64,000 nt of DNA from assembly GCF_035582795.1 (NCBI RefSeq), contig NC_134367.1:6806062-6870061 (forward strand), in the 5' to 3' direction. This document shows positions 5,871 through 53,026 of this stretch, piece by piece; the stretch's first letter is position 1; each line of letters opens with the position of its first letter. The DNA is from Mycteria americana (taxonomy: Eukaryota; Chordata; Aves; Ciconiiformes; Ciconiidae). The position numbers were made by a program, and so were the translations under genes. The notes under the pieces are model-generated. The model did not search any database and had not been told where the DNA came from. It saw only the letters and a program-made list of their open reading frames with translations.

Positions 5871-7463
5871 TCTTGCTGTAAGCTTTCAAGGCCGGGTAAC
5901 TCGTTACTGAACTGAGCAACTAGAGACTGGGAGACTGGCTAGAAGGTGGAGAGGTTCAGGAGCAGATAGCTGTGATGCTGATGGCGTTTTATAGTTAGCT
6001 GTGATACAGTGCGTAAGAACACAAATGCTTAGCGTCTTTGGAGTATTTCGAAGCTAATACTGTGGTCTTATGTGTTACTGCGCCGTGAAAAACTCTGGTT
6101 CTGCTTTTTAAAGCACCTGACAACACGAAATGCGTGATTCTCTGCTCCATTGCTCATCTCATTTCTTTTCTTTTTTTTTTTTTTTCCCCTCTTTAAAGGG
6201 GCTGTGTGTTAAAAGTCCTCTGTATTAGGAGATGCCTTAATGCTGGTTTTGACGATCCTTTCTTCTAACATTTGTATCTTCTAAAGGAATTTTAACTGTT
6301 GGTTGCAAGGAGGGATGATTTCCCATGCTTTGAATTCCTCTCACTGCTAAAGCTTTAGCTACCGTTAAAATGACTTACACTTTTAAAATAATACGCTCAA
6401 CGGTTTTAAAGAGTTTTGGGGAAAGGGTTGAGATACGCCAGAAGACATTCGTGCAGTTAGGAGGATACCTGCTGTTCCTCCTAGAATTGCCCTGGTTTGT
6501 GCAAGTGAGATAAAGGAGAAATTTGCTGGAGCGGGGCTCTTCTTGAGAAGTAAATACGCTGTCTAACAATACTGCAGAAGTTTTTGTGAAACGTGGAGCT
6601 TCACTTCCACTTTCTTAAAGGTTTACAGAATAATTCTGGACCTTCCTGAACAAAGTGTTCCTGTCATACCTAATAAGTTTGGAGGGGGGGGAAGCTTACA
6701 AATCATACCTTGCATTCATAATAGTCATGAATGCCTTGGTGAGAAATACTTGCCTCATAGGTAAGGTTACTAACGATATATATATTTTTTTTTTTTAAAT
6801 ATGATACATAAAGAACAGGTTTAAATACTGCTATGGTAGTTGTAAACAGCTTAGAAGGAAAACAGAAGTAGAAGTTACTCCTGGAAGTGCTATGTATATA
6901 CTAAGCAATAAGTAAATAGGAATGTTGGAAGGCTCAAAAAGTCATCCAGCAACTCAAGAGGGTGGAAACTGTGGAAAAGGACAGGTGAGATGAAACAGAA
7001 AAATTATAATTACAGTAGAAAACAAACTTCTGGTCTGAACAGTGATGTGTAAGCAGGATTTAGAGCTGTACAGGACGCTTAAATGTGGAGCTGGAATTGT
7101 TCAGGTGCCTGTGCTTGAACATGAGGGAAAATACTGATTGTCTGCCTTGGAATGTAGAATTGTAATGAGACACGCAGAATGATGGAATAATTGCCTAAAA
7201 GAGAGAAAACAATTCTTCCTTTCATTTAGTCTGGAATGAAAAAAAATCTCATTGCTCATTTGTTTTAATATATGAAAAACTATGACAATATAAGAGAAAC
7301 TTCTCAAGTTAGTAGGGAAATGTGATGTTGACTTCAGTGGTTGTTTAGACCGGTTATTTTGCAGTTAACCTCTATAAGGAAGATGTACATAATGTATAGC
7401 TAGTTAAACTGGTTCCAGTACAATTATTTTGTGTTACATGTCTTATCTTTTTAAATTTTTCAG
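5618..7463 (+). other. ENPP4: ENPP4 intron 1 (inferred)
   Basis: This is the stretch between the candidate exon 1 donor and the pyrimidine-rich acceptor (tttttcag) at 7456-7463. Beyond short T-runs near 6169-6185 and 6785-6797, nothing is recognisable in it. Confidence 0.4.
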
Positions 7464-7505
7464 GTGCATCTGATTGCCTGCTGGAAATACTCTGAAGTAT
7501 CGACA

Positions 7506-8328
7506 ATGAACTCGATGTTAACATTACTTTTTTCTGGAATAGTTGCCTGTTGTGCTCACTCTTCTGGTGGTTCGGTATCCAGGTTACTCCTCGTGTCCTT
7601 TGATGGCTTCAGGGCCGATTACTTGGAAACCTATAAACTTCCTCATCTTCAGGAGTTCATTAAGGATGGTGTGCTTGTAAAACAAGTTACAAATGCTTTT
7701 ATCACCAAGACTTTCCCAAACCATTATACCATAGTGACAGGTTTATATGAAGAAAGCCATGGCATCGTGGCTAATGACATGTACGATGCAGATGCCAAGA
7801 AAAAGTTTTCACAGTTCAATGATTCAGATCCCTTCTGGTGGAATGAGGCAGTTCCAATTTGGGTAACAAATCAACAGCAGGGAAATGGAGCAAGTGCTGC
7901 TGCAATGTGGCCCGGGACCGATGTAAAAATTAATGATACGACCCCTCAATTCTTTATGAAGTATAACTTTTCAGTAACGTTTGAGGAGAGAGTGGAGAAA
8001 ATTGTTGCATGGCTGAACAGCTCTAATCCAGTAGTCAGTTTTGCTACATTGTACTGGGAAGAACCAGATGCAAGTGGGCACAAGTACGGACCAGATGACA
8101 CTGAGAACATGCGCAAAGTATTAGAAGAAGTGGATAATCACATTGGTTTCCTTACTAATAAATTGAAGGCATTAGGTTTGTGGGACACTATTAATATCAT
8201 AATAACAAGTGATCATGGAATGGCCTCCTGCTCTGCAAAGAAGCTGATTATCCTGGATGAGTGCATTGGTCGCAATAACTATACTCTGATAGACAAGAGT
8301 CCAGTTGCTGCAGTGCTGCCAAGGCAGA
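7506..8328 (+). CDS. ENPP4: ENPP4 coding exon 1: signal peptide and most of the phosphodiesterase domain
   Basis: ENPP4 is a type I membrane ectoenzyme of the NPP / alkaline-phosphatase superfamily. The human enzyme cleaves Ap3A on endothelium and promotes platelet aggregation. The CDS joins 7506-8328, 9281-9451 and 12093-12457 (452 residues; human 453). This exon encodes residues 1-274. The start at 7506 gives a short hydrophobic signal peptide. The exon itself opens at 7464, with 42 nt of 5' UTR in the same frame but without an upstream ATG. Expected metal and nucleophile residues are visible: D33 in SFDGF, T69 in KTFPNH, D188 and H192 in EEPDASGHKYGP, and D236-H237 in ITSDHGM. N-glycosylation sequons include NDT at 143 and NFS at 154. 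The exon ends A|GTATGT, splitting an Asn codon. The match to human ENPP4 is strong along the whole length. Confidence 0.97.
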
Positions 8329-9280
8329 GTATGTTTTGGTTTTTTTTAAGTCATAGACTGAGAATTAAATCTTGTTTATCTTACTACTAAAAAGTACACA
8401 CTATGGTAGACTGTTCACATCTTTTGCAAAACCAGTGTAGTTCATATTGCAGAACTTTGACATAATTTAATTAATAAGCTAAAGAATGTTTGTTTACTTA
8501 GAAATGACTTTGTTTTGGTAATCAATGGGCCAAGGAGAGTTTCTTGTCAAATTGCTATGGGTGGTAAAGATGGTCCTGGTACAGCTTGTTGAGAAAGTAG
8601 ATAGGCACTTAGTATGCCTGCTCTCTTGTTGCTCACTGAGTCCACACAGTAATAATTCACAGTGAGCATGAAATAAACCCTCATGTTTATTCTGAATAAA
8701 CAAGTCATTGTCTAAACTTCCAAGTAAAAATCTAAACCCAACTTTTATTGCTTTACCACTTCTGTTTCTGTGAAGGAAACTTCAGTTTTCATATTGTGAA
8801 TTCAATTTTTGTATCTTGGAGTAGTTACTAACAGGCACGTCTTCAATCATGACACTGCTGGTCTTGGTTCCCCACCACTGTGGCCAGACTGAAGCAATTC
8901 TAATGAACAAAGTGATTTATACAGTAACAAAATTTAATACTTCCTGCTTTGGATAAAATATTGACTACTTTGGTGTGTGATTGCTTTCTTTTGATTTCTC
9001 TGCTTGAATTTTGCCCTCTTCCCCTGCATGCCCAGAGGGTAAGTTGAATTGTAGGTCCAAAACCACAGCCGTGAGGTACCTGATTTAAAATGAGAGCAAA
9101 TGTGAAATCCACCTCTACTTGTAGTGTTTCATTAGGGATGTGAAAAAAACCTTTTCTATGTACCTTTTCAAAAATAATTGTTTTGAAAAAAAAAAAAAGG
9201 ATCTTTGGTTTAATGACAGATAATTGCAGTAAACAGGACATAATTTCCAGCTGTTTCACATGCAGTTTTTTTCTTGGCAG
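8329..9280 (+). other. ENPP4: ENPP4 intron 2
   Basis: A GTATGT donor and a ttcttggcag acceptor bound this intron of about 0.95 kb. The open frame of exon 1 runs on to 8390, but this is intronic read-through. No repeat or regulatory element was recognised apart from an A-run near 9187. Confidence 0.85.
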
Positions 9281-9451
9281 ACAAAAGAGACGTGTATAAC
9301 TTACTGAAAAAATGCAACAGTCACATGAAAGTATATCTCAAAGAAGAAATTCCAGACAGATTTCATTATCGTCATAATAAGAGAATTCAACCCATAATTC
9401 TGGTTGCAGACGAAGGCTGGACAATTGTGCAAAATGAGTCGCTTTCAAAAT
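9281..9451 (+). CDS. ENPP4: ENPP4 coding exon 2
   Basis: This 171-nt exon encodes residues 275-331. It begins with the last two bases of a split Asn codon and ends with one base (AAAT|GTAAGT). The protein shows VYNLLKKC, a lysine-rich stretch, then [16 protein letters not shown], which closely follows the human ENPP4 segment near the end of the catalytic domain. Its ENPP5 paralogue exon (21998-21822) has the same phases and similar length (177 nt). A damaged copy of this exon lies about 0.86 kb downstream (10106-10280). Confidence 0.96.
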
Positions 9452-10050
9452 GTAAGTCTGTTTTCCTCATTTGTGCTCTTGGTGGCTTATGTTGGTAAAC
9501 TGTCTTGTTTTCATTCGAGCCATCTGTAGGATGGTCCTAGTTTAGGGAGTGGAGTCCTGGCACTGTGTATCTTTAGGAACATCTCAGCATTTTCTAGAAC
9601 ATTCTTAGTCTGAGCCTGGAGTGTTTTAACAGATGAGAAAGAGATGGGGGATACTCTGTTGGCTAAAACACTTTGTCATGTTCAACTTAATAGCCTGAGG
9701 TACACTTTTAAGAGTTATCTTAGGCAAGTTAGCAGTCTGTCTCAAGCTTCCTCTAGAGTGTGGTTTAACTGTTTTTTGGTATATAAAATATTCATATAGG
9801 GGAGCATAAATTGAAGAATGCAAGACAAAACATTTAATGTTACAGTACCTATACTAGGAAACAAAAAGAAATGGGAGGAAATACTAAAAATAATAGGAAC
9901 ACAACAATAATGGTCAAAGAAGCCAGAGTTCTTCCTGTTAGGGGCATCAAATAGCATGTTTTAAAGACAAAAAACAAAACAGATGTTACTTCACACTGTG
10001 CATTGCTAAGCTATGTACTTTCTTCCTGCTAGATGCTATGAATGTCAAAT

Positions 10051-10108
10051 TACATACATACATATATGTATATATATGTATATGTGTGTGTATATATGTA
10101 TATATATT
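10051..10108. repeat. TA/TG microsatellite, left block
   Basis: An imperfect alternating purine-pyrimidine run (catacatacatatatg, then TATATG / TGTG units) lies directly upstream of the exon-2 copy. Such Z-DNA-prone and cruciform-prone tracts are breakage hotspots. It pairs with a similar block on the other side of the copy. Confidence 0.9.
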
Positions 10109-10280
10109 TCCAGGTGTTTCACATGCAGGAGTTTTTTTGGCAGACAAGAGGTGTGTATAACTTACTGAAAAAATGCAACAGTCACATGAAAGTATATCTC
10201 AAAGAAGACATTCCAGACAGATTTCATTATCGTCATAATAAGAGAATTTAACCCATAATTCTGGTTGCAGATGAAGGCTG
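10106..10280 (+). pseudogene. ENPP4: Partial duplicate of ENPP4 coding exon 2 (dead exon copy)
   Basis: The 175 bp match 9243-9419 at about 95% by eye: 38 bp of upstream intron, including the acceptor, plus the first 139 bp of the exon. The copy stops at GAAGGCTG and runs straight into a TG repeat, so the exon 3' end and splice donor are missing. Relative to the source it has a net 2-bp loss shortly after the acceptor, which would shift the frame and create an early stop if spliced in. It also has a CAA to TAA change near the RIQPI position. The reading frame starting at 10042 that contains [11 protein letters not shown] is this copy, not an independent gene. Intron sequence in the copy argues for DNA-based duplication rather than retroposition. 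Confidence 0.93.
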
Positions 10281-10294
10281 TGTGTGCGAGTGTG

Positions 10295-10326
<32 letters not shown>

Positions 10327-10330
10327 CGTG
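10279..10330. repeat. TG/TA microsatellite, right block
   Basis: TGTGTGCGAGTGTG followed by a long TA run and TGTGTGCGTG begins at the last bases of the exon copy. Together with the left block it suggests one original microsatellite interrupted by the copied exon segment. Confidence 0.9.
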
Positions 10331-12092
10331 TTCAGAAAGTGATTGGAGAAATTCTTGGAAGAAAAATCCATTAATAGAAATTAAATACAAAGGTACCAAC
10401 TTCCAGGAAGTTTCTGAGCAGCCAACAGCTCGAGGCTGGTTGGTATGGCAGGGCTAACCCTGTTGGATACTTCCCACACTCCCTGTTATGACTGCTGTCA
10501 GAGACAGGATGCTGGGTGGTGTAAACTCCCGGTTTCACCCAGTTTGGCTGTTCTTACTGTCTGCTGTTTGCACATTTAAGTTCAAATTTTCTCATTATTT
10601 GTACAAAAGTACTGCTTTTAATGTAAGATACGTTTATATATTAATTTCCCCACAGATTTGCTACAATCGTCTTCAAATTGACAACACTTAGCACACGTGT
10701 TCTCTAATAGAGGTCGCTTTCTTGTTTATGGTTAGATTCAATTTCATGTACCTAAAAATAGTTAATAAGTGTATATTTATAAGTTAACAGCGTTGTATCA
10801 GTTGAAGTGAATCACTTTTGAAAACAATTTTGCTAGTCAAAGCTTCCCAGAAGCAGGCAGGGGGAGGTTTTAGCCTGAAAGGCTGTTTAAGTGTTTATTG
10901 TACTTGTCTTCATGGACAACGTGGCAGCGTAATGATTGGCAAGTGTACCAATACTTACGCTGTATCTAGCAATGTTGGCGCACACCAGCCCTCCTACTTC
11001 AGAGGTGAAAGATAGGGAACTTCATTGGAGAGGGGACTTGGAACAGCTCTGTTCAAAACAAGCAAGTAGTAGAAGGGGGGGAAAAAATGTAATGGAGAAA
11101 CAAAGGACTGCATTAAAACAAAGCAGCAAGATGTGTAGTAGTATCTTTGTGGTAACAAACACGCTGGTGGAAAACATTAAAAAGGAATATTGGAAGTATA
11201 CTTGAAGTGTGGCTTGATCAGTAGGAATCTTGACATTTCACATCAGAAACTTTAGTGAAGCAGCCAAGGAGACAGTTCTTGGGGAGACTCATTAAACTGT
11301 TACTAAGAAATGAACTCAAAACTTAAATGCAGTCATTCAAATACTGTGCTGCATGTGCTATGAGAAATTTTTGGCATCTTGGACAGATTTTTCAGGCATG
11401 TTGTCAGGAAACTCGACTATGGCTGGTTTTTAGCTGTGTATATTCCACCAAAAATGGGAGTGAGTATTTCCTAAAAACCTACCAAATGTCCAAGTACTGG
11501 TGACCTTGTAGCTACAAACGTTTTGTTGTTTGCCTGTCACGGGCATCATGATGTTTTGACAGTTTTTTGGATTTGACTATTTGGGTATCCCTTCTCCTGA
11601 AGTACCTAATCTGATCAGCATGATTTGAGGGTACTTAATACGCTTGAACTGAACACTATCAAGGGGAAAGTGCTTGGCTTTTAAGAAGTAATTAAAGTGT
11701 CTGCTTTGCAAGAGGGAGATTATGTCTTTCCAAAATCTGAGAAGTATAGATTTGCATTCCAGCTACTGACTTGTGGAGTGGCAACATTCCTTTCCACTTT
11801 GGCATGAGGAGTGGGAAGGGGAAAATTGAAAATGTTGACAGTTGAAAGGAAAAGAGATAAGGGTGGGGGAGGAACCATGGCTGAAGACCAGTATGGGAAA
11901 AGACTTCTGGGGATTGGGGAAGAGGGAAGGAACTCTGGGTTCCTTCAGTGTTTGATCGAACAGCTGCTTTTATGTTCTGCATTAGTCTTCGGTTAAATAA
12001 TATGCCTTTTGGGGGTGGGGGAGAGATAGGGAGGGGAATACTCGCTATGCAAACAGAAACTGATGTTAACTCTTAGCTTTGCATTTCTCCAG

Positions 12093-12457
12093 TAGGCGAC
12101 CATGGCTATGACAACGCTCTCCCAAGCATGCATCCATTCCTGGCTGCTCGCGGGCCTGCTTTTCATCGGGGTTACAAGCAGAGCACAATGAACAATGTTG
12201 ATATTTACCCAATGATGTGCCACATCCTGGGACTGACACCACAGCCGCACAATGGCACTTTCAGTAACACCAAGTGCTTGCTCGCTGACCAGTGGTGCAT
12301 AAATCTTCCAGAAGCTATTGGGATAGTTATTGGGGCTTTTATGATACTGACTACTTTCACCTGCATTATAATAATCTCAAAGAATAGAGTAGTTCCCCCA
12401 CGGCCATTTTCCCGACTTCAGTTACAATGTGATGATGACGATCCTTTAATCGGATAG
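12093..12457 (+). CDS. ENPP4: ENPP4 coding exon 3: last metal ligand, membrane segment and tail
   Basis: This exon encodes residues 332-452. It opens with the split Leu codon, then GDHGYDN, in which H335 is the remaining zinc ligand expected for the family. A sequon NGT follows in HNGTF. Near the C-terminus a hydrophobic helix ([16 protein letters not shown], continuing CIIII) is the single membrane anchor. A short cytosolic tail ends with PFSRLQLQ and an acidic DDDDPLIG, nearly identical to human. The stop is TAG at 12455-12457. The total coding length (823+171+365) is divisible by three. Confidence 0.97.
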
Positions 12458-13310
12458 TGTGTAGGGGGCCTTGCCTCGCTTGCTAAATAGTGATTTCAGG
12501 AAGGGAGTTTGAACTTGCACTGGATGGCATTCTTTGCACTTTAACGGTATCCGTATAAAATACTGTACAGCCAGATCTTGCAAACTTGTTTGTGTATGCT
12601 ACCTGAGTAGTAGTCCTGTAAAAGTATTTTCAGAACAAAATGGTGAATGGGTGGCGTTCTGCTGGAAGAGATGCTTAATGTAATAATGATGCTTAGTTTT
12701 TCATTCAAGCTTTGAACACTTTCAAAATGAAATTCCAGAGTATGAACTAGCCAGGATAGTCTAAGTGAATTTTAACATTTGTAAATGATAATTGGGTTTT
12801 TTTTGTATTAAATTGACTTCTTTTAGTGTTCTTGTACCTGTATTGGAAAGATCTCTTTTATGAGAGTTAGAAGTTAGTTCTATTTGGACAGTCTATTCTG
12901 GTTTGTTCTTAAATTTGGGGATAGAGGGTGTAGAGAAGATCCTTCTGTTTCCACCCTAAGCCAGCAATATGACAAGAAAACGGAAGTCAGTGAGGAAAGA
13001 ATTGGTGCATATCACTTCTGTTTTGAGCAATAAAGTATGCGGTTCAGCAGTTATAACACTGGGCAGATGGCTCTGACACTTCTAGACATCTGTCTGTGGA
13101 TGACTTGGTTCCACAGTTCCTGCACTTGGAGAGTTGGAATGCTTCTACTTGCTTATCTCAAGGATGTTGGTTTAATCTGAGAATCCTTTGATTACTCAGT
13201 TTAATGGACTGTAGTAGTAAAATTAACTGCTTTTAAACCCTGTGAAAAGTTTTTTCAGGTGTAAGCTGTGCTGAAGGTGTTTTTGTAATAAAGGTGGTTC
13301 TGCCCTGTGT
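12458..13310 (+). other. ENPP4: ENPP4 3' UTR (inferred)
   Basis: Non-coding, AT-rich sequence follows the ENPP4 stop. Its extent is inferred from the AATAAA signals at 13029-13034 and 13287-13292; the second is followed by a GT-rich stretch. A longer UTR is possible. Confidence 0.5.
13287..13292 (+). terminator. ENPP4: Candidate poly(A) signal of ENPP4
   Basis: A canonical AATAAA lies 830 nt after the stop, with GGTGGTTCTGCCCTGTGT downstream resembling a GU-rich element. A weaker competing AATAAA is at 13029-13034. Confidence 0.5.
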
Positions 13311-20062: not shown

Positions 20063-20433
20063 CTAATCTTGCAACAGTGGCTGGGCAGCTTCAGTATGTT
20101 GCATTCTCATGGTATTTGCCTGGGTGAGGATAAAATGTTTCACAAAAACTGCAATAAAAACCATAACAAGAAAGCTGCCCAGAAAGACTCCTACAACAGT
20201 AGCATAGGTGTCTGCTCCAAAGGCTACAGGAACTTCTTCAGCAAGTATATCTTTCACAGCGTTGAATGAACCATTGTTTGGCAGTGGGTTAATACCAAGG
20301 AGATGGCACAATAAGGGGTACAAGTCTGTAGCATTCATGACTTCTTTGGTGGCATTCTTTCTGAAAGCAGGCCCAACTGCCAAAAAAATTGGATGCATTT
20401 CTGGTAAGATGTTGTCATATCCGTGATTACCAA
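20063..20433 (-). CDS. ENPP5: ENPP5 coding exon 3: last metal ligand, membrane segment and tail
   Basis: The acceptor is tttatttctag on the minus strand, and the exon encodes residues 334-456. It opens GNHGYDN, with H337 as the final zinc ligand of the family. NAT and NGS sequons follow. Near residues 412-431 a hydrophobic helix (VVGVFLGSFLVMVFIAVFV) is the membrane anchor. The tail ends EAAQPLLQD, matching the human ending AQPLLQA. The juxtamembrane stalk after KDILAEE is about 20 residues shorter than in human ENPP5 (477 residues as recalled). The stop is TAG at 20065-20063. Confidence 0.96.
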
Positions 20434-21821
20434 CTAGAAATAAAAGACAGAAGAAGGTCAATATTCTGAAGTCGCAAAACAAGCACTGAACCTTTTCCTA
20501 GGATTAGCATAATGCAGAAAAAGAACAGCCATCATTTATTCTTGCAGAGGTTTAGAAGAATCATTTTGATCAACAGCACAAATGTCTCCTAGCAAATACC
20601 AAGTCTCAGAACTACAAAAAGAAGATGCCCTAAAAAAAGAATGGAGAGCACTATTTAAAAATGGAGGGGGAAAAAAAAAAAAAAAGGTAAGCTCACACAG
20701 CAGTAACAGCATTGTCAATGGCATGCTATGCTACACCCAAGTTTCCTTGGTTTTCCTCAAGGAAAAAGTCCAACTTTGCAACTGGACCAGATCTCTTAGG
20801 GAAAAAAAAAAAAATCCATGTAGAGATAGACTGTTTGACTCCTAGTAGCAGACAGAACTTAAGCTCTGACTGCTTTGACACTGTCCAATTTTGTGCACTA
20901 TCTACTCATCAAGAAGGGAAAAGTTTACAGATCTCACTAGTGGGTCTCCAGTGGCCCTTCCTTACAGGGGCAATGAACACTCTGAAAAAGTGAATAAACA
21001 TGCAGGCACAAATAACTGCTCTCATCAGCTATCAACACTGAAAAACTTGTTAAGTCTCGCAGGTAATGCTCTTCAGCTTCATAACCAGCAGCAAAGTTTA
21101 AAAGGTTTTCAATTAAGAAACTTCAAGAACTGACCATATGACACCTATATTTTTCCTCCCAGCTAACCAAAAGTTACATTTACTATCTCTATTCTACCTA
21201 TAATAAATCTCAAAACACCAAGGTGAGGAACTTAAAAGTGGGGGTTTTTTTCCTCCAAATCACCTAGAATGCATCTTCTCCTATAAGGTAAATGAAAATC
21301 ACTGGTGTACAGCAACACAATATTCAAAGACTCTTTCTAGCAATAGAACAAGGTTACTATAAGTGTAGGCATACAGAAGTTGAGGACTTTGAGAAAGCAT
21401 TCTTGTATTTCCAACCCAACCCTTCTCCGGTAAATAAATAGTACATGATAAAACAACGCTATTCATCCTCTACTCAACAAGTTCAGTTACAACTTTTTTT
21501 TTTTTTCATCTCTCAGGAAGTGCTTGTCAGTTTGCTAGATTTCGCAAGACGACCTCAAGTACGTGGCCACTAAAACATGTGAATGATCTTATCTCAGTAA
21601 GTTTAATTTTTAGAAACGGTAAGTCCAGTTCCCCCTCCCCTAATAGTAGGGTGCTTCCCATCCCATCAGGAAAAAAAATTATAAATTCTACATACTTAGG
21701 TTTGGAGTTTTCCCTCCCAGTCTTAAAAAAAAAAAAAACCAAACAATTAACATTGGTTGTGACTGGGAGAGAAAGTACCATGTAAGGTCTCTGCAAAACA
21801 CTGTAAAGACAGAATACTTAC
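20434..21821 (-). other. ENPP5: ENPP5 intron 3
   Basis: The intron has a GTAAGT donor at 21821 and an acceptor at 20435-20434. It is AT-rich with several short homopolymer runs (A-runs near 20672 and 20802, T-runs near 21491). No gene or clear transposon was seen. Confidence 0.85.
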
Positions 21822-21998
21822 ATTGAAAACCGTCAGACTTATTATATACAATTTCCCATCCTTTATCAGCCACTGCTAAGATTGGCTGAATTTTACTGTT
21901 GTGCTTGTAATGTAATCTATCTGGAATCTGCTCCTTTTTATATACAGTCATGTTGGGATGAGCATTGGCCAAAGCTTCATATACTTCATCCAGTTTGC
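21822..21998 (-). CDS. ENPP5: ENPP5 coding exon 2
   Basis: This 177-nt exon encodes residues 275-333: [20 protein letters not shown], then a lysine-rich stretch and [15 protein letters not shown]. It follows human ENPP5 closely. It is the paralogue of ENPP4 coding exon 2 with the same splice phases (G|GC at the start, T|GTAAGT at the end). A sequon NMT is present. Confidence 0.95.
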
Positions 21999-24900
21999 CT
22001 TCAAACAAACAAAAGAAACAAAAGACAAAACTTAAACATACCAATATGTTTACTGAACTCATCAGTAGTTTAAATACAACTGAAAGAAGATGGCAAAAAG
22101 CACTTCCCCAAAAGCTAATTATAGCTGTAAGAGACAACAGTGGATTACAATGCGCACAGAAGTTACTGTGAGAAATCCAGAGCATCATTCACAGCTGGCG
22201 TCGAACTTCACAGCCTATTCCTAAGCAGTAAGTGCCTTGCTAATTTTAGGAAAAACCCCTCATTTCATAGTTATCAGAATATAAGCTTCTCACAAGAATG
22301 AGTTAGAAGGCATTCAGTTAAGGCTCACGGAAAAGAAACCAGCTCCTCCTAGCTCCATGCAAAGCTTGACAGCAAGGAGATAGCTCCTAAACCTATGAGG
22401 TAATGTGCGCATTAAGGCCGTATTCTGTCTTCCCCCCAGTTGGCTATGATGACAAGCGACACTTTTTATTTATTTTAAAGCAGTTTAATTGTTAGTTGCT
22501 TTCTTTAAAAGGCCAAAGAGAGCAGCCACTTTGTTTCTTGGCATCTCTGAAAACTTATTTGTGAGTGAACCCAACTATTTATTTCTCCCAGATGCTCCAA
22601 TAAACAGCTACTTATTTGACCTCATTTGATTCCCAGTTTTGATCTTCTACCATTTTGATGACAAGTTTAGCCAATTTAGAAAGAGTAGCTCATTTGTTTC
22701 TATGCACCATGTAACATCACAGTATTAGTAATTAATTGCCTAGGGATAAGCAAAACTAGCTTGCATTAATCTTTCAACAGAAGCCCTCAGGTCACAGTCC
22801 AGATGCCACTAACACGTTAGGAGCTGTACAAAAATTGCAGAGGCCTTAAGCAGGGAACACACGACAAACACACGAAGGGACAGGTTGGACTGGCAGATCA
22901 AGATGGCACTTTTGGTCCAGAACTGTCAGCCACTCTGTGTATTCAATAACAGCTAACAGCACTACCTTTGTGTTCTTAGTGACTAGGGAAAGGAAAGGAG
23001 CAGACATCTACTGCAGAGTGAGCATAAAACCTCAAAAGCTGTACTAACACTACCAAATAAATAGGCATTTTCCACCCCCAATTTTTTTATTTGCTTATTT
23101 CCAGTTCCTGAGCTTTTCTTTCCAATAAAAGTCACTGAACAGTCAGAAAGCAGTTGGACAAGCTGCAACACCAGTGCACAGAAAGGAGGAACCAGGACAC
23201 GCAGAGAGGAACACAAAAGCAAGTTCAGGAACCTACATCTGAGCAAGTTTCTTTGATATCCTCCCCCTGCCCCTTTTCAGCACAGGTTCCTATTGAGGGC
23301 TATACATGTACCTAACAGACTTCTGTTACAGCCCAACTAACTCAGCTCCATGACTTAAGTACTTTGTGCTACACACATGCACAAGTCAGCTGGACAGCTG
23401 AGTTCACAGCTAGTGTCTGCAGGCCAGTTTCAGCGCTACACGGTCTGAAGCACGGTTGGAAGATGTTTACATTTTCTTTGTGGCCAACACTGCTGTTTTT
23501 AGCAGATGAGTGGAATTTAAGCACATCCTGTCATTCTGACTTATCATTTCTCGCTAGTTCTACCTTCACAGCTAGCTGTACATCCTGCAGCGGGTGTTCC
23601 TGTGAGTGAGCTCTTCTCTGCCTATCTGTCCCAAGAAACGATCGCCTTGATTACCACAAGAACAAGTGCTTAGTTTGACCTGAGACACCACCTGAGGATA
23701 AACCAAGGATAAGATCTGGTCTAACATTTTCAGCATGCATGGAGTTTTGAATATATCTCAGGAAAAAAAAAAAGTTTGGGAGGAGGTGCCCAGTGTCTTT
23801 AAAGAAACCGTCTTCGTTTTCTCCCTCAGTTCCTAGGATCCAGTATAGAAATTCTGGAGGAAAACTGGAAATAGATTAATATATAATGTTTCTTATCTAA
23901 AATTGGCATAAAAAAAGAATCACTAAACTTAAGAAATATAATAAAGGTCAAGATGAGACAGCAAAAGTACAGATACGATATAGTTACAGCAACAAGGGAC
24001 TCCAATCTAGCATTTCTAGGACTATATTAGTAACAAAATTAATTTTGTGATGCCACTTTTTTATATGGGATAACAGGGAGGAGAAGCCCCAAATACAGCA
24101 AACTATGATTTTACACTAAATTAATTACTTGAATTAATATATTAAATGCAAGAAAAAGGCCAGTATCATCACCTGTGCTACAGGTACCATCTTTGTGAAC
24201 ATATAATTAGTTCCACCCACACTGTACACAAGCATAGTTAAATAATGGCTTTAATCCATCTCTCAGGGAAGAAATATGCAGCCAAACAGTTAAAGTAGCA
24301 GAATTCACTGCATTTTCATGCATTCAAAATTTTTCTCAATGTCTCACTAAGTTTTACCATTCCCTTGGTTTAAGCAAGACAAATGGAATAACTGTTGAAG
24401 AATCAGTCATGTACTTAAGTATAAGTTATTTCATAGCTAAACTGAGAATGAAGCTCATTGCTTTATAATAAAAATTACAGCTGGTAACATGGAAGGAAGG
24501 AATTTTAGCCGTGCTCAAAACTAATTCTTGTTTATTGGTAGTGTAATAAATATCTGAACCTCTGAGCAAAACCAAATCCAAGCTATTTCTGAAATCTATT
24601 GAAATGGCTTTTTTACTGTGCTGTCATCTAATTGTTGCAGATATACTATTTCTTTTCAGCATTCAGCAGACAGGAGAATCAGGTTACGCATCTTCCAGTT
24701 CTCATTTACTGCATTAGGGATGTTTTAGTGCTAAAGTTTACTTTTACTACTCCCTTTATTTGGTAATGAGAACATCCTAGTCAACCATATTTGTCTCCAT
24801 TAGGATGGACTCCCAAACTCGACTCTTCTATCACCACTGAGAGAAACAGCGCCCAGCTACAAACACCTGAGTGCACTCAGGCAGCAAGTGATCTCAGTTT

Positions 24901-26133
24901 GGACATACTAACATTTTAGTCTGGAGTATTCTTCAAACTAAGCTCTTCTCCCAAGTAACTAGCGATAGGACGAGAGGAAATGGCCTCAAGTTGCATCAGG
25001 AGAGGTTTAGATTGGATATTAGGAAAAATTTTTTTACTGAAAGGGTTGTCGAGCATTGGAACAGGCTGCCCAGGGAAGTGGTGGAGTCACCATCCCTGGA
25101 GGAGTTCAAAAAATGTGTAGACGTGGCACTTCGGGACATGGTTTAGTAGGCACGGAGGTGTTGGGTTGACGGTTGGACTAGATGATCTTAGAGGTCTTTT
25201 CCAACCTTAATGATTTTATGATTCTATAAAAGTGACAAGAAGCATTTGCTTACACATTTAAAGGTCACTTAAGCCTGCAAAATACCCTCCCTGCTTGGAC
25301 CTTAAATAGAGTGCTGTCTATTAGTGATGCAAATGTTACAGAAATCTTAAAAAACACCTTTTCAGAAGGCCACCTTAAAACTCAACTTCCAAATTAGCAC
25401 CCCTGCCCACACAAAAAACGCTACTGTCCAGGTTAACACATTCACAGCAAACAGTTACAGCTTTTGATCGTCAAAATAAAGACCAGCACCTCTACATCAG
25501 CGACACTAACCACACATCTGACACTTAAGCAACTCTTCAATGACTGCAACTAGACTTCAGATTTCAATTCCAACAGTATTCTTGCCCACCATTATCACAA
25601 TAAAAATGGTATGAACATAACTGGCTGGCTGTTCAGCGTGATGGGAGAAAAAAAACCTAAAGTGAACTACAATAGCTGGCAATAATCAAATAGCCAACAC
25701 AGGCTTTCTTTTTATCAAAGGTCCCCATCTGGTTTCAGTTTACTGTTTGAGTTAGAAATATAATTCCTCCACTATGGCTTTAGCATCTTGACGAAAGGCA
25801 AGATCTGTAACATTCAGTTGTCATCTATCTAGAACGCCATTCATCCTTGATAATGCTGTTAGATTATCTTACTTCTTGTAAGGACTACAGGATATTTGGC
25901 AATGTTAGTCAACAACAGACAGATTTGCTCACTTTTCATTTCAGAAAGTTAATCCAGGCTTTTGACAGAGCTAGCAAAAAGAACAAAGAAGTGTTCCTGC
26001 AAGCACTCCTTGCTCAAGGCTGATATCCTACTGGCATCAGTGCTGCCAACACCACTTCAGTTAAGGAACAAAGCCTATAAAGTTTCGATACTCGAGTATT
26101 TTCTTCAGAGAATTTTACTGCTATAGCTCCTAC
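21999..26133 (-). other. ENPP5: ENPP5 intron 2
   Basis: This intron of about 4.1 kb has donor GTAGGA at 26133 and acceptor ttgaag at 22004-21999. It contains one CR1 LINE 3' fragment (24953-25227). The remainder is AT-rich, with no exon or other element I can support. Confidence 0.85.
24953..25227 (+). mobile_element. CR1 LINE, 5'-truncated 3' end
   Basis: The stretch matches the well-known avian CR1 3' terminus: AGCGATAGGACGAGAGGAAA, then GGCTGCCCAGGGAAGTGGT, GGACATGGTTTAGT, and TTGGACTAGATGATCTTAGA. It ends in the family's short tandem tail (ATGATTTTATGATTCTAT). It is oriented opposite to ENPP5 within the intron and has no coding capacity. Confidence 0.93.
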
Positions 26134-26956
26134 CTTCTTTTGGCAAAATAGCTACTGCAGGAGAATGGTCAATGACTTTATAGAGCTCTCTATTCACATA
26201 CTGATCAAGCTCAATGAGCCTTTCTGAGGAGGACTGTGACATTCCATGATCACTTGTGATTATGACATTTATCACATCCCACAGCTTCGCTTTCTTCAGT
26301 TCAGACATAAGATATCCCAGCTTTTTGTCAATATCACTAATTATTGGTCCCATAAGTGGGTTTTCTGGGCCCAGAATATGGCCCATCTCATCAGGCTGTT
26401 CCCAATATAGGAGACCAAAGTTTATGGGTTCTTCTGATGTAAACCAGCCAATAAGCCTAGCAACTCTATCTTCAAAGGAAACAGATTCATTGTAGGGCAT
26501 ATAATATGTAGGAAAGACTCCATGTATTTTCACATCTGTTCCAGGCCACATAGCTGCTCCAGTTTTATGTCCTTCCCCCTGGTTCGTTATCCATATTGGG
26601 CTGGCTTCTTCCCAGAACTTGGAGTTATGGATATCCATTTTGTTCAAAGAGAAAGTTTCATTCAGAATAGGATCATACATCTCATTAGCAACTATACCGT
26701 GGCTTTCTGCATAGAGACCAGTCACCATCGTATAATGATTAGGATACGTTTTCGTTATAAACACATTAGTGACCTGTTTGACATGAACACCATTCTCCAT
26801 GGCATAATGAAAATTGGGAGTTGAGACTTTATAGATGTAATCCCATCGAAATCCATCAAAAGATACCAGCAACACTCTGGGCTGGGCTGGCTGGAGAGAC
26901 AATGCTCTTGGAAGAAATAGTAAGAAAATTGCCAGGACTTGCCAATAACAGTTCAT
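26134..26956 (-). CDS. ENPP5: ENPP5 coding exon 1: signal peptide and most of the phosphodiesterase domain
   Basis: ENPP5 is a type I membrane member of the NPP family and a close paralogue of ENPP4. It does not hydrolyse ATP efficiently, and NAD has been reported as a substrate. The CDS joins 26956-26134, 21998-21822 and 20433-20063 (456 residues). The start at 26956 gives a clean signal peptide (MNCYWQVLAIFLLFLPRALS) just before LQP, as in human; the longer in-frame start at 26995 would put charged residues in front and is also less likely by position. Active-site residues are visible: D34 in SFDGF, T70 in KTYPNH, D189 and H193 in EQPDEMGHILGP, and D236-H237 in ITSDHGM. The exon contributes 823 nt, exactly as ENPP4 coding exon 1 does, and ends GAAG|GTAGGA. 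Confidence 0.97.
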
Positions 26957-26958
26957 GG

Positions 26959-27003
26959 CTATTCTGGAAGGTAGTCGTCCCCTCTTCTGAGGCAAGATGG
27001 CAT
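26959..27003 (-). other. Upstream ORF of ENPP5 (14 codons)
   Basis: Directly after the acceptor (ctgctcaacag) the exon starts with ATG. This opens a 14-codon frame ending TAG only two bases before the ENPP5 start codon. If the first exon is spliced here, scanning ribosomes would meet this ATG first. Initiation context for the main ATG has G at -3. This could dampen translation or allow reinitiation. Confidence 0.55.
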
Positions 27004-27395
27004 CTGTTGAGCAGAGACAGAAGATTTGTTTGTTAAAGTCATAACTTAGTTTTAAGAATGAGTAGCTAAAATATTCCCTAGGTATTTATACCGCCTGCCT
27101 TACTAACACTGAGCACTCCAAGCATAGGAACAAGACTCTTACCTATCAGTTATACTGATATCCCAGTTTCAGAGATGAGAAGTGAGACACTACAATTTGT
27201 TGAATGAAACAGTTCACAAAGCAACTTCTTTATCCAACACCACTGCCCAATCTCTTCCTTTTTTCTTCCTGCTCCCAATACACAGGAACTCCTGCTCTTG
27301 CAATTTGGCAAGTTTTCAAGTATTTTCAAAGTTGTAAGAAACTGTCCCTAGAGAAAGCTTCTGCTTGTTAAGATGTAAACAGGGGCAGTTCTCAC
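27004..27395 (-). other. ENPP5: ENPP5 intron 1 (inferred)
   Basis: This short candidate intron runs from a strong donor (AAG|GTGAGA, GT at 27395-27394) to the acceptor at 27005-27004. It holds no recognised element. Confidence 0.5.
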
Positions 27396-27620: not shown

Positions 27621-29151
27621 CCAACACTTGGTGTGGGATTACTAAATGTGCCGAGTACAATTTCTAGCAGAGAAATTAGCAAATAAGCTTTGAATTTCAG
27701 ATACAGCAGCATATCCATTAAAAGGTTTTGCTGCTTAAAAGGTGTCAGATCAAGAGTTAGACAAACAAAGAGCAGGAACATCAGTTTCCCAACATTTTAT
27801 CACATCTCTAACCTGATCACAGCTTCCCTATGTAACGGAGCTCTTACTGATCAAGTAATTCTGATGCTTACTACCAAAGGTCACTTCTAGCGTACAGACA
27901 GCTTTACGAACAAGAATGTGCCATTTAAGTTCTTCTAACTAACCACTTAGGTCTCTGAATGGATTGGAAAGAGGTGGTTGAAAGATTCAGTGGTACAGTT
28001 GTGAGTCACTGGAAATACTACATCTTTCAAGCAAGCATCATCTGTCCTTTCCAGTCAAGTGCCACTGCTACCTGAGTGCGAGCAGCATGAAGTATGCAAG
28101 ACAGAAGAAATATAACACAAATCCCGCCCATGAAGTGCATGAGATGGTGACCGCTACACACTGTACCCTAAAGCATTTGCTCCCTAGATAAACAGTCAGC
28201 ACTAATTCTGATCATATGACTCAACGATATTGACTATTCCTAACTATGACTGGCACTCCTTATCTAATAGCATGACATAATATGACACAATTTCATATTG
28301 TATTGCATCATGCTCCCCAGCCCCAGTTTCCCTCTGCCCTTCCCAAACACTTTGTTGTTCAAAACTCAGTTATCTAACTCAAAGTAAGGTCCCTGTAAGA
28401 ACCCTCACACCGGATTTCCCTATCCATAACTGACCTAAAATTTCATGCCAATATTCCCCACTTCTGGCTCAACAGCATCATTTAACCACAAGGCCAGACA
28501 CTGTTCAATCCAATCCTGCACTTGGACTGTACTGATACTCCACATAGTTCCCTTTAGGCTCCCATTTTTCAGCAATCCTCTGGAGCAAGTCACTACTGAA
28601 ATTCAGCTGGAAGACAGTGATTGTGTAATCAGCAAATCCATATTAATATCCAGAATACACAAATATCCTAAAATAGTTAATATAAAAAGTTATAGCACAA
28701 CAAGCATCCAAATACCACTGCAATGATGGAACAGGATTTGTCATTTTGGTAGAACACAAGGTATCTTCCATGGGAAATTTTCCTACTCCAATTCCCCAGC
28801 TAAATCTCTCATATATATATTTACACTGGAAAACAGCATAGGCACTGTTGACTTGCAGGTACTCAAATGTTACACCGAACTTGCCTATCTCCCAAAATTA
28901 AAATCCAGGCCTAGAGCACTGCTATGAATGAACTGACACTTCAGAGGCATAACTCCCCTTTCAGCAAACACCACAGACCCAAAGGCTGCAGAATCGCTCA
29001 GTTTCACCCAATGTGGGATTTCTTTCAGCTGAACCTCAAGGAAGACAGGGAGAACATGCTGTTGTGTCCATCTGAAACCCATCCACCAAATTAAGTGTAG
29101 CCCATGGCTGAGTCATACCTTTCCCCTTCTGGGGAGTGACAAGTAAGAATT
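27621..29151. other. Non-coding DNA between the two ENPP5 promoter candidates
   Basis: This is AT-rich. The open frames (for example 27690-27890, 28445-28726) are short, with no recognisable protein features. If the upstream CpG island starts ENPP5 transcripts, this is intron. Nothing else was seen. Confidence 0.4.
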
Positions 29152-29526
29152 TCACAGAATCACAGAATCATATAGGTTGGAAAAGACCTTTAAGATCATC
29201 GAGTCCAACCATAAACCTAACACTACCAAAACCACCACTACACCATGTCTCTAAGCACCTCATCCAAACGTCCTTTAAATACCTCCAGGGATGGCAACTC
29301 AACCACTTCCCTGGGCAGCCTGTTCCAATGCTTGATAACCCTCTCGGTGAAGAAAAATTTCCTAATATCCAGTCTAAACCTCCCCTGGCACAACTTGAGG
29401 CCGTTTCCTCTTGTCCTATCACTTGTTACCTGGGAGAAGAGACCGACCCCCACCTCTCTACACCCTCCTTTCAGGTAGTTGTAGAGAGCGATAAGGTCTC
29501 CCCTCAGCCTCCTTTTCTCCAGGCTC
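29152..29526 (-). mobile_element. CR1 LINE, 5'-truncated 3' end
   Basis: Read on the plus strand, the stretch starts TCACAGAATCACAGAATCAT then AGGTTGGAAAAGACCTTTAA. It continues through CCTGGGCAGCCTGTTCCAAT to GATAAGGTCTCCCCTCAGCC. This is the reverse complement of the avian CR1 3' terminus. The overlapping open frames on both strands (29136-29612, 29168-29422, 29238-29453) derive from the element and from chance. The regular tail and low damage suggest a comparatively young copy. Confidence 0.95.
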
Positions 29527-29939
29527 CTTTTCTCCTGGCTTTAAGCCCTCTCAAAGGAAACCAGGTCTTTACTTCCGAATTTTACACAGTTAACGATGTC
29601 AACACCACCTAACCCTGTAATTGCACATTTTTAATAAATAGTGTTTGGGGTTTTTTTCAAGGCCTTCCTATACTGGTCTTCACTGGATACATCCTGAGCA
29701 CACCTACTCATGCGGGTCTCTCCAGAAACCCAGCACCACAAACCTCGGCTCCGGGGTCCTGAAGGGGCTCTGGCGGGACGAAGGCATCTGGCTGCCCAGG
29801 GCAGGGAGCTGCCACACAGGCACACGGCAGGCAGCCAGGGAAGTGCCCAGGGACCCGTTCGGCAGGCAGAGGAGCCCAGCACACAGGCGAATGGCAAGGG
29901 CAGGCCGGCATTCCCCTACACAGCGGCCTCCAACCGCGG
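29527..29939. other. Flank of the CpG island, no gene seen
   Basis: GC content rises towards the island. Long overlapping frames occur on both strands here but are typical of GC-rich non-coding DNA; none has a recognisable domain. Confidence 0.4.
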
Positions 29940-31658: not shown

Positions 31659-31711
31659 CGAGACTCAATGATCTTAAAGGTCTTTTCCAACCTATACGAT
31701 TCTGTGATTCT
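31659..31711 (+). mobile_element. CR1 LINE tail fragment (about 50 bp)
   Basis: ACTCAATGATCTTAAAGGTC, then TTTTCCAACCTATACGATTC and TGTGATTCT match the last bases of CR1, including the 8-bp tail repeats. The upstream body is absent, as is common in strongly 5'-truncated copies. Confidence 0.85.
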
Positions 31712-34700
31712 GAGACTGAGACTAGTACAAAACTGGAAATATATATTGCTGCTGTGATCAGTAGAAGCTGTGTGGATGTGGCTTTTGTACACAGGAAACT
31801 GAACTAGACCACACCTATAGCACCAAGTTCATCACCTGATTCCTGACAGTGGCCGACACCAGAAGCTTTGGAGAAAAGGGTAGAAAGAGAAAAGCCGTTA
31901 TAAAATTGCATCTGTGTGTACTGAAATTTCTAGCTGGGTGCCCTTCAACAGCAATAGTTACTCTCATGAGCTAGGAAAAATAGTACTCACGTTTCCTGTT
32001 GGTTCAACTTTAATTTTGGCCTCTCATCACTCAGATCCAGAGGTCTGGGGAACTACGATAGTGACCTGCACGCTGCTGCAGTGGCTAGAATTAGCCACTA
32101 GAGGGTACAGGTGTATACGGATTTAAGGCACTGTTCTGGATAGCTGGAAATGATAATATTTGTCTTGGATGTAAGAAAGGGCTCAGCTGCTTAAAACTGT
32201 TATAAAATGAAAACAAAGCATGGACAAGGCATTTGCTAATTCCACCAAAATGTTTAATACCATAATAGATTTTCACTGAAGTACAGAGCTAATGTGAATA
32301 TTTGTACAAAATATGTGGTTAAAAATAGTATTGATTTATAGTATATACAGATATGTCACATCTGCGTCAGAAATGCAGACACTTGAATGAAGACATGAGT
32401 AATGTTTTTAAATCTACAACAACATACATGAAATACTTCTGCAGCTACCCACAGTAGGACAACTTGCCAAATCGACACGTACGGAGCCGTCAGTCATTAC
32501 AGAGGGCATTTCTTTCAGAAGTTTCTGAACAAGAACTCTGCTCTAAAATGGATTCAAAACATTTACCTTCATTAACCCAACAGCGAAGAGAACACATCTG
32601 TGTGACACTAATGTAGACACAAATTTCTCATACTAGATAAATGGCCAATTGCAATAATTTGTTAAAACAAGGCTGATTTTCTGGTGTGTAATAATAGAGA
32701 AGTTTAATCCTTCTTGCTGGAAACTCTTACTGAAGTGGGTGAGGAAGCCCCTGACTCAGGGATAGCAAATGGGCCCTTCTTAATACAGCTCTCATTTACA
32801 TGGATTTAAATCCTGAAGTGTGTCTTAAGGTCCTGAATAGCTTCATTTTTCATTAACTTTGAGGCTGCTCACACTTCACAGCTTTCCCAGCCTTACTCCA
32901 GCAAGAATCTCACTAACAAATGCCCCAGATTCTAGGCTTCGTAGCTACTGCATCGGTACGCAATCCTACGTTAAAAGAAACCATGATGACTCTTACTGTA
33001 CCCCAGAAGCTCTGTGTAGCGACTGAACAAATTGACAAAAGGGGAGAGATGAACTAAGGCTTTTTTTTAATGCTTTTTGAGCATCTCTGCAGTGGAGGCA
33101 TTCGGGGTTCTTGCCCTTCCATCAGGAGTGCTGCTGCTGTTCTACCTCCAACAGTGCAGGCTCCCCTCCCCTCCAAGCCAAAGCAAACATACTCGACACT
33201 TCAAATAGACATGTGGGAAAGAGCTTTTACAACACTTCCTCCGTTGTAATTTTACCCGAATGCCGCAGTCTACATGTATTTAAAAAAAGAGCACAGCTCA
33301 CATTAGGAAAAACATCTCCTTTTAAGAGGAGCCTAGAATATCTGAAAGCTGCTGTACTCCCCCCAGAAGGTGTGCTAAAACAGGAAAAGCAATGTTTGAT
33401 TTGGGGTTTTTTGGTTTTTTTTTTTGCTAGCATAGTTATTCCAAAGCATTGCATGAGGAGGAGTATAAGCAAAGGTCTGTGTGGGACTTTAATCCATACC
33501 TGGTTTTGTTTTTTGGTAAAACAGAACTAAATACGATTTCTTGGGCAGAGGGGAATCAAAGAAATGCAAAAGTCTTAAATTTGTACATGAGAGACAGTCT
33601 TAAGTGGCTAAATGTTTAGTGGTAAATGTTTACCACTAAAGAAGGAACAAAAATAAATTTAGTAAAGGTTCTTTAGAGGATGCAATCTGAAAGCACTGTA
33701 ACTTTAATCAGGATATCTACAATAAGCTACGTAAATCCCCTCTTCCATAGAAAGCTTGTTCCAGCTCCCCAGATCCATGACAGATACTGCCTTCACTTCA
33801 AGCAAGCTGTTCCAGTAAGTCCATCTGTAACACCACTGAACTGACTACAGATTTCATCATCGGGCAGTAAAATACCAAACAACCCAAGCCCTCTGAGGTG
33901 CTGAATCCATTTGAAGAAGCTGGGCCGATCATCAGGGAGCGAGTCGGTAACTACAGACCCAGTTGCAGAGGTGGAGTCTGCTCTGCACTTTCCAACACAT
34001 CCTTCTTCAATCACCATCTCCATTGCTTTGACTGTAACTCTTTAGGGCAACCAAGGCTGCACAAGGAACAGCAATAGCCAGACTATCAGTAATGAAGTAC
34101 AGCGAGCTTCAGCTGCAAGTAACCAAGGCAGGAGCCGAGGAAGCCTCAGGCCCCTGCTGCAGCTGGGAGAAATATTCTTCACTCCCATTATTCACTATCA
34201 CGCAGGGTTAGGTTGCACATGATCACTTGCACGCACAAATGCCCAGTATAAATAAATATTGCCTATGTGTGTGCAAATTCAGTGTGTACTGAAGTTACAC
34301 GCATACAGACAGTCACGTCCTCAACCAAAGACCAGTTTGAGATCCCCCGGGACATACAGCTCCCTACCATTTACCATGGAAGCCTTGAAGCTATTTCCAG
34401 GTGCTGTGTCCAGTGCCAAGCAAGACGGAAGAGCCACAATCAGTGTCTTGGTAATGCAACATTTCAATCGGATCAGATGAAGAACCTCACTGGAGTTGGG
34501 AAAGCTCATTTGTTGCTCAACAGTGAAGAAGAGATCAGGCCTCCTATAGTGCATTTTCCCTCTAAAGTACTCCGTAAGATGACTATTACTACTTTTTCTA
34601 ACCAAAACACAGAGGTTAAAGCCTGTCTTTTCAAAAGGAATCGGTGAGCTCAGAGCGTACATTGCCAAGGAGACTTCTTAAGCGGATCTAATTTTCAGAA

Positions 34701-52175: not shown

Positions 52176-52252
52176 ATACATATATATATACACATGAGCG
52201 ATATCAAGGTATTTATATTGTCATATATACACACACACACACATATATATGT
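52176..52252. repeat. TA/CA microsatellite in two blocks
   Basis: TA-rich block 52176-52195 and a TATATACACACACACACACA-type block 52221-52252 are separated by about 25 bp of unique sequence. Confidence 0.85.
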
Positions 52253-53026
52253 GAGATGATCAAGGTATAATAATAGAAGTCCCATAAGCTAAAAATAAGC
52301 ACCAAGGTGAACATTTCCTCATCCCCTGTAGTAGGTCTCAGTTTCCCCCCAAGTCAACAATGAAATCATTCATCATATAAAAAAAGATATTTCACCAACC
52401 ATGGAAAAAAACATGCATGGACTTGTCTGGACGGTGGGAAGTAAGTATCTATTACGACTGACTATTTATTAGGAAACAGATTCTCCCGGTATGGACACAG
52501 CAGTATTTTCTTGCATGGGCCAGTCCTGTGTGTGTGCCCTCTTTGTGCACAGCAGACATGACAACGTGGAACCTACATGTTGGTTAGGGCCGTAATGCAA
52601 AAGAAGGGAGGACATGATTTCAAACGTGGGTCCAAGAACAGCGAGCACAAGGAATGTTCTGGGCACATTTCTGGACAATACTGAGATGCACTCTCATTAG
52701 GCACTGAAAGGGTCAGAGGGGAGTATCTCTAAATAAAGCTGATTAAGTACTGGACGCCAAATGTAATACTGGGAGAACATTAAAGCGCTACAGACTTTAT
52801 TCTGCTTACTTTTCAATTTGATACTGGCGCAGCTTTAGAGATCCAGCTTTGATTAACACTCCTAAAAATGCTGGGGGGAGGATGGAAATCAAGCCCTTTA
52901 TTTGATATTAGTACAGGGCAGTCTATCCACAGTGGGGACACATCTACTGCACCGACTGAAACTGCATCTCCCATTAAAAGGATTCATACATCTGAATTTT
53001 TCTACATTTTCAGCTGATAATAATAA

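Follow-up and report, generated by a model that had tools for sequence, protein, structure and literature searches.

A copy of an ENPP4 exon edge within a TA/TG repeat of intron 2 in Mycteria americana

The ENPP4 locus and the exon copy

A 64,000-nucleotide stretch of the Mycteria americana genome (contig NC_134367.1, positions 6,806,062 to 6,870,061; hereafter the window, within which positions are numbered) contains the gene ENPP4, and intron 2 of this gene carries a copy of the edge of its own exon 2. The copy is real and well defined. It reproduces the end of intron 1, the splice acceptor and the start of exon 2 in direct orientation, and 686 bp separate the source segment (177 bp) from the copy (offset of 861-863 bp; Table 1). 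Identity extends over 165 of the 175 ungapped columns (94.3%), with 10 mismatches and a single 2-bp gap; blastn gives 93.2% identity over 177 columns. The final 128 bp of the copy have only 3 mismatches to the source (97.7%). The local alignment of the two segments scores 293, as compared to 34 or less in 300 first-order Markov-simulated pairs. An earlier note, made by a model from the sequence alone, had described 175 bp repeated about 0.86 kb downstream at about 95% identity, composed of 38 bp of intron, the acceptor and 139 bp of exon and bordered by TA/TG repeat on both sides; the alignment and the two alternating purine/pyrimidine runs confirm each part of this description.

Table 1. Features of the ENPP4 locus and of the exon copy (window positions)
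Feature	Position	Strand	Basis or remark
Source segment: end of intron 1 (38 bp, 9243-9280) and start of exon 2 (139 bp, 9281-9419)	9243..9419	+	alignment
Copy, 175 bp, direct orientation, in ENPP4 intron 2	10106..10280	+	alignment; own-genome search
Left TA/TG flank, 57-bp alternating purine/pyrimidine run	10051..10107	.	last 2 bp match the source too
Right TG/TA flank	10281..10331	.	alternating run 10290-10331
Copied acceptor region	10129..10143	+	altered, GAG before T7 tract; 7.7 bits vs 11.5 in source
Cryptic donor GAG/GTGTGT, in copy without source counterpart	10148..10156	+	8.5 bits; source equivalent -6.8, no GT site
TAA in frame after splicing of exon 1 or exon 2 to the 10143 acceptor	10158..10160	+	translation
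ENPP4 coding exon 1	7506..8328	+	reading frame and donor
ENPP4 exon 2	9281..9451	+	donor GTAAGT
ENPP4 last coding exon (exon 3)	12093..12457	+	reading frame

Both the copy and the repeat that surrounds it are uncommon in the sequence surveyed. The source/copy pair is the sole direct-repeat family of at least 60 bp in the window, where direct repeats of at least 30 bp lying within 5 kb of each other form five families (C-rich sequence, TA/TG repeat, this copy as two pieces and a poly(A) pair). A search of the bird's own genome (1.35 Gb, 279 contigs) places the source and the copy only, making at least two places in total; this is a lower bound, as simple repeats were skipped and the best candidates alone were scored. 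Frequency was estimated in 264 kb, made up of the window and 20 stretches, each 10 kb long, taken from 1.0-10.5 Mb of one contig (C1), a small sample from a single contig. Self-matches of at least 60 bp and at least 80% identity (E-value threshold: 1e-8; no rows dropped) number eight: four come from a single repeated block with which stretch L003 begins, three are inverted pairs (in L006, L019 and the window) and the last is the source/copy pair. With the L003 block set aside, this pair is the sole direct dispersed pair in the sample. The flanks of the copy are the only alternating purine/pyrimidine runs of at least 40 bp in the 264 kb and represent two of the three such runs of at least 22 bp in the window. 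The third (52222-52253, 32 bp) has no direct repeat of at least 30 bp listed at its position.

The inverted pair of the window (24943-25231 and 29150-29441) shows 80% identity and has a short related fragment at 31662-31715; a minus-strand reading frame at 29238-29540 resembles the tail of a CR1 reverse transcriptase. The L019 pair (50-145 and 1993-2088; 96 bp, 92% identity, 1.85 kb apart) has no matches in the other stretches, and the sequence adjoining one of its copies resembles an avian LTR (long terminal repeat) end. No RNA families were matched in window positions 7000-13000. An exact back-translated pattern found no matches in bacterial, archaeal and viral contig collections, where zero are expected. 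Among the literature matches listed, no title names an ENPP4 exon copy, which is not proof that it is unpublished.

The identification of the gene as ENPP4, also made in the earlier note, is borne out by its spliced product. The three coding exons together encode a protein of 452 amino acids, for which ENPP4 (4lqy; E-value: 1.9e-201) is the top match among solved structures. A start of the last coding exon at 12096 would preserve the frame as well; 12093 is preferred as it yields the expected LGDHGY. Minus-strand reading frames at 20063-27085, in the orientation opposite to ENPP4, resemble those of the ENPP4 paralogue ENPP5. An 84-nt inverted match (8179-8262 and 26200-26283) lies within the first large exons of ENPP4 and of these ENPP5-like frames.

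Joints, template and origin of the copy

At the left joint, repeat sequence ending in TATAT is followed by the source sequence TTCC, with AT shared (2 bp). At the right joint, source sequence ending in GGCTG is followed by TGTG, with TG shared (2 bp). There is no poly(A) tract at either joint. The sequence between source and copy, whose duplication the earlier note had named as the finding that would speak against its reading, is not duplicated: positions 9420-10048 have no counterpart in 10332-12000 (local score of 23, shuffle mean of 24, with 66 of 100 shuffles scoring as high). As expected of a locally templated insertion, a nearby template is thus retained and the sequence between template and insert is present once. 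Such insertions are a familiar, ordinary class of event, and the structure is most simply explained by one template switch or by repair of a break from the nearby exon. The copy is therefore likely to be a one-off, locally templated insertion, in which about 175 bp were taken from the nearby exon at a break or stalled fork in a TA/TG repeat.

Plain tandem duplication by unequal crossing-over was rejected, because the interval is not duplicated head to tail, but a later deletion could mask such an event. In a two-step origin of this type, a tandem duplication of about 863 bp (from 9243 to the repeat at 10105) would be followed by a deletion within the second unit, running from after the equivalent of 9419 into the duplicated repeat and leaving the exon fragment and the repeat. 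The end structure would be the same, and a deletion could readily end in the repeat. The flanks also align with each other over 34 bp (4 mismatches), but so would any pair of TA/TG repeats. This origin is nevertheless unlikely: it requires two events, making it less parsimonious, and 10332-12000 contains no trace of the sequence that would have been deleted (9420-10048). The preference of the earlier note for a locally templated insertion over crossing-over thus holds as the simplest reading of an unduplicated interval, but not as an exclusion of duplication followed by deletion.

The nature of the template can be narrowed to a lesser extent. The earlier note considered the copy to be DNA-derived since intron sequence is included. 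This excludes mature mRNA, and a processed retrocopy or class 1 templated insertion is ruled out as the intron part is kept and the 3' joint has no A tract. Nascent pre-mRNA also contains the intron, however, so intron content is no proof of a DNA template. Reverse transcription of unspliced ENPP4 pre-mRNA could have supplied the sequence that filled a break, as proposed for class 2 templated sequence insertions. The copy is oriented as transcription, and its 175 bp fall within the experimental range of 73-414 bp given in PMC5110952. For the one cell system described there, the authors favour a reverse-transcribed RNA template and leave DNA template switching open (PMC5110952). At this locus the template is part of the same DNA molecule, at a distance of 686 bp, such that DNA switching explains the copy without RNA, and joints lacking a poly(A) tract do not correspond to class 1; an RNA-templated patch is accordingly rated as improbable.

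The model proposed for a locally templated insertion is as follows. The TA/TG repeat would have broken or stalled a replication fork. The end within the TA part would have used AT to prime on the source, allowing about 175 bp of the nearby exon edge to be copied, and the new end would have rejoined the TG part at TG, with 2 bp of possible microhomology per joint. The process may have been microhomology-mediated template switching or synthesis-dependent end joining. The copy would since have drifted as intron sequence.

Published work supports the individual parts of this model. In one lung-cancer set, templated insertions have microhomology of 2-12 bp (mean of 3.7) at 80% of the junctions analysed, and templated insertions with short microhomology are also described as human germline variants (PMC8421209). 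The breakpoints of human structural variants of less than 2 kb near meiotic hotspots are often found in tandem repeats (PMC7615360), and template switches in apes are overrepresented close to poly(dA:dT) tracts and AT-rich DNA (PMC7954356). Expanded TA repeats are reported to stall forks and to break in repair-deficient cells (PMC9666358). In the ENPP4 intron, the two flanking tracts would together amount to a single repeat of about 100 bp. The empty site reconstructed by joining them (121 nt) is predicted to fold into a long hairpin (-15.3 kcal/mol), while 33 window segments of similar G+C content average -6.7. The coincidence of a rare copy with a rare repeat points to the repeat as the place where damage occurred.

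The aligned exon part shows five differences between source and copy. Two of these change CpG to TG and one turns CAA into a TAA stop codon, a pattern which fits decay of the copy without proving it. If all five differences (in 137 exon columns) are assigned to the copy, assumed substitution rates of 1.2-3e-9 per site per year give an age of roughly 4-71 million years, a loose bracket.

A number of points weigh against a locally templated insertion at a fragile repeat. The difference pattern alone proves nothing: one CpG out of three has survived, and third codon positions account for three of the five exon differences. The 2-bp matches at the joints are weak, being likely to occur by chance beside a dinucleotide repeat, and fall short of the median lengths (10 and 15 bp) given for human non-repeat hotspot variants (PMC7615360). 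The exact joints are not readable because the repeat has changed since insertion, and the empty site, an uninterrupted repeat without the insertion, is itself a reconstruction. The hairpin is unexceptional: the opposite strand folds at -11.5 kcal/mol, values for the 33 segments with similar G+C content extend down to -17.1, and 48 of 533 window segments are as stable as or more stable than -15.3. The longest pure TA run has about 10 units, fewer than the roughly 20 associated with cruciforms in bacteria and yeast, and breakage of TA repeats is reported for expanded repeats in repair-deficient cells (PMC9666358). Finally, the coincidence of copy and repeat was noticed after the fact, the feature having been picked once seen.

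Splice signals and possible consequences

Splice sites were scored in bits using position tables. The copied acceptor is comparable in strength to the ENPP4 exon-3 acceptor (7.8 bits), and AGs at 10128 (8.5 bits) and 10113 (7.2 bits) compete with it. The earlier note had stated that the copy has no splice donor. This is correct for the source donor (after 9451), which was not copied, but not for donors in general, as candidates are present both in the copy (GAG/GTGTGT) and in the TG repeat. In the right repeat, the best GTs score 2.8 to 4.5 bits (10279, 10289, 10315 and 10319) and the rest are lower, to -5.4; the site at 10289 (4.1 bits) equals the exon-1 donor (4.1 bits). Sites of comparable strength are common on the + strand of the window (rank 136 of 4672 acceptors and 323 of 3218 donors).

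The prediction of the earlier note that use of the acceptor would shift the frame and trigger decay agrees with the translation, in which the same stop is reached from either upstream exon. As a copy joined at 10143 meets TAA at 10158, its inclusion should lead to decay. A functional coding alternative exon was rejected on the same grounds, there being no open frame through the copy from this acceptor.

These signals raise the question of whether the copy could be an active poison exon or regulatory pseudoexon under selection. An acceptor matching that of exon 3, a donor at 10289 matching that of exon 1, a stronger GAG/GTGTGT donor at 10150 and the stop that inclusion would bring are consistent with such a role. 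The acceptor is weaker than that of the source, however, and has rival AGs, while the scores are only indicative and many window sites score equally; judged from sequence features, the role is very unlikely. In its most far-reaching form, the repair patch would have set an acceptor into a donor-capable TG repeat and thereby created a poison exon (approximately 10144-10289) in one stroke, lowering ENPP4 output via decay in this lineage. This outcome, too, is very unlikely. The copy is probably an inert scar.

Comparison with known templated insertions

The ENPP4 copy is of value as a clear single case in which a dinucleotide repeat received a templated insertion, with template, target and orientation legible in one genome. 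It also illustrates how an intron could acquire a splice acceptor through repair. Being one neutral-looking example, it changes little in the general picture.

Three described systems are comparable. The class 2 templated sequence insertions of Onozawa and Aplan (PMC5110952) are similarly non-excised copies of approximately 100-400 bp at a new site, and both they, as described there, and the ENPP4 copy have at most short microhomology and lack poly(A). Unlike these insertions, the ENPP4 copy has its template 686 bp away, and target-site features are unreadable within the repeat. The templated insertions attributed to microhomology-mediated break-induced replication (MMBIR) by Osia et al. (PMC8421209) resemble it in being copied from another template, with short microhomology that is only possible in the ENPP4 copy, but the case presented here comes from a reference assembly, has diverged by several percent and has an exon edge as its template. 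The short-range template switching described in great apes by Walker et al. (PMC7954356) shares the local switch and the AT-rich context; in comparison with those events, the ENPP4 copy is in direct orientation and lies approximately 0.86 kb from its template.
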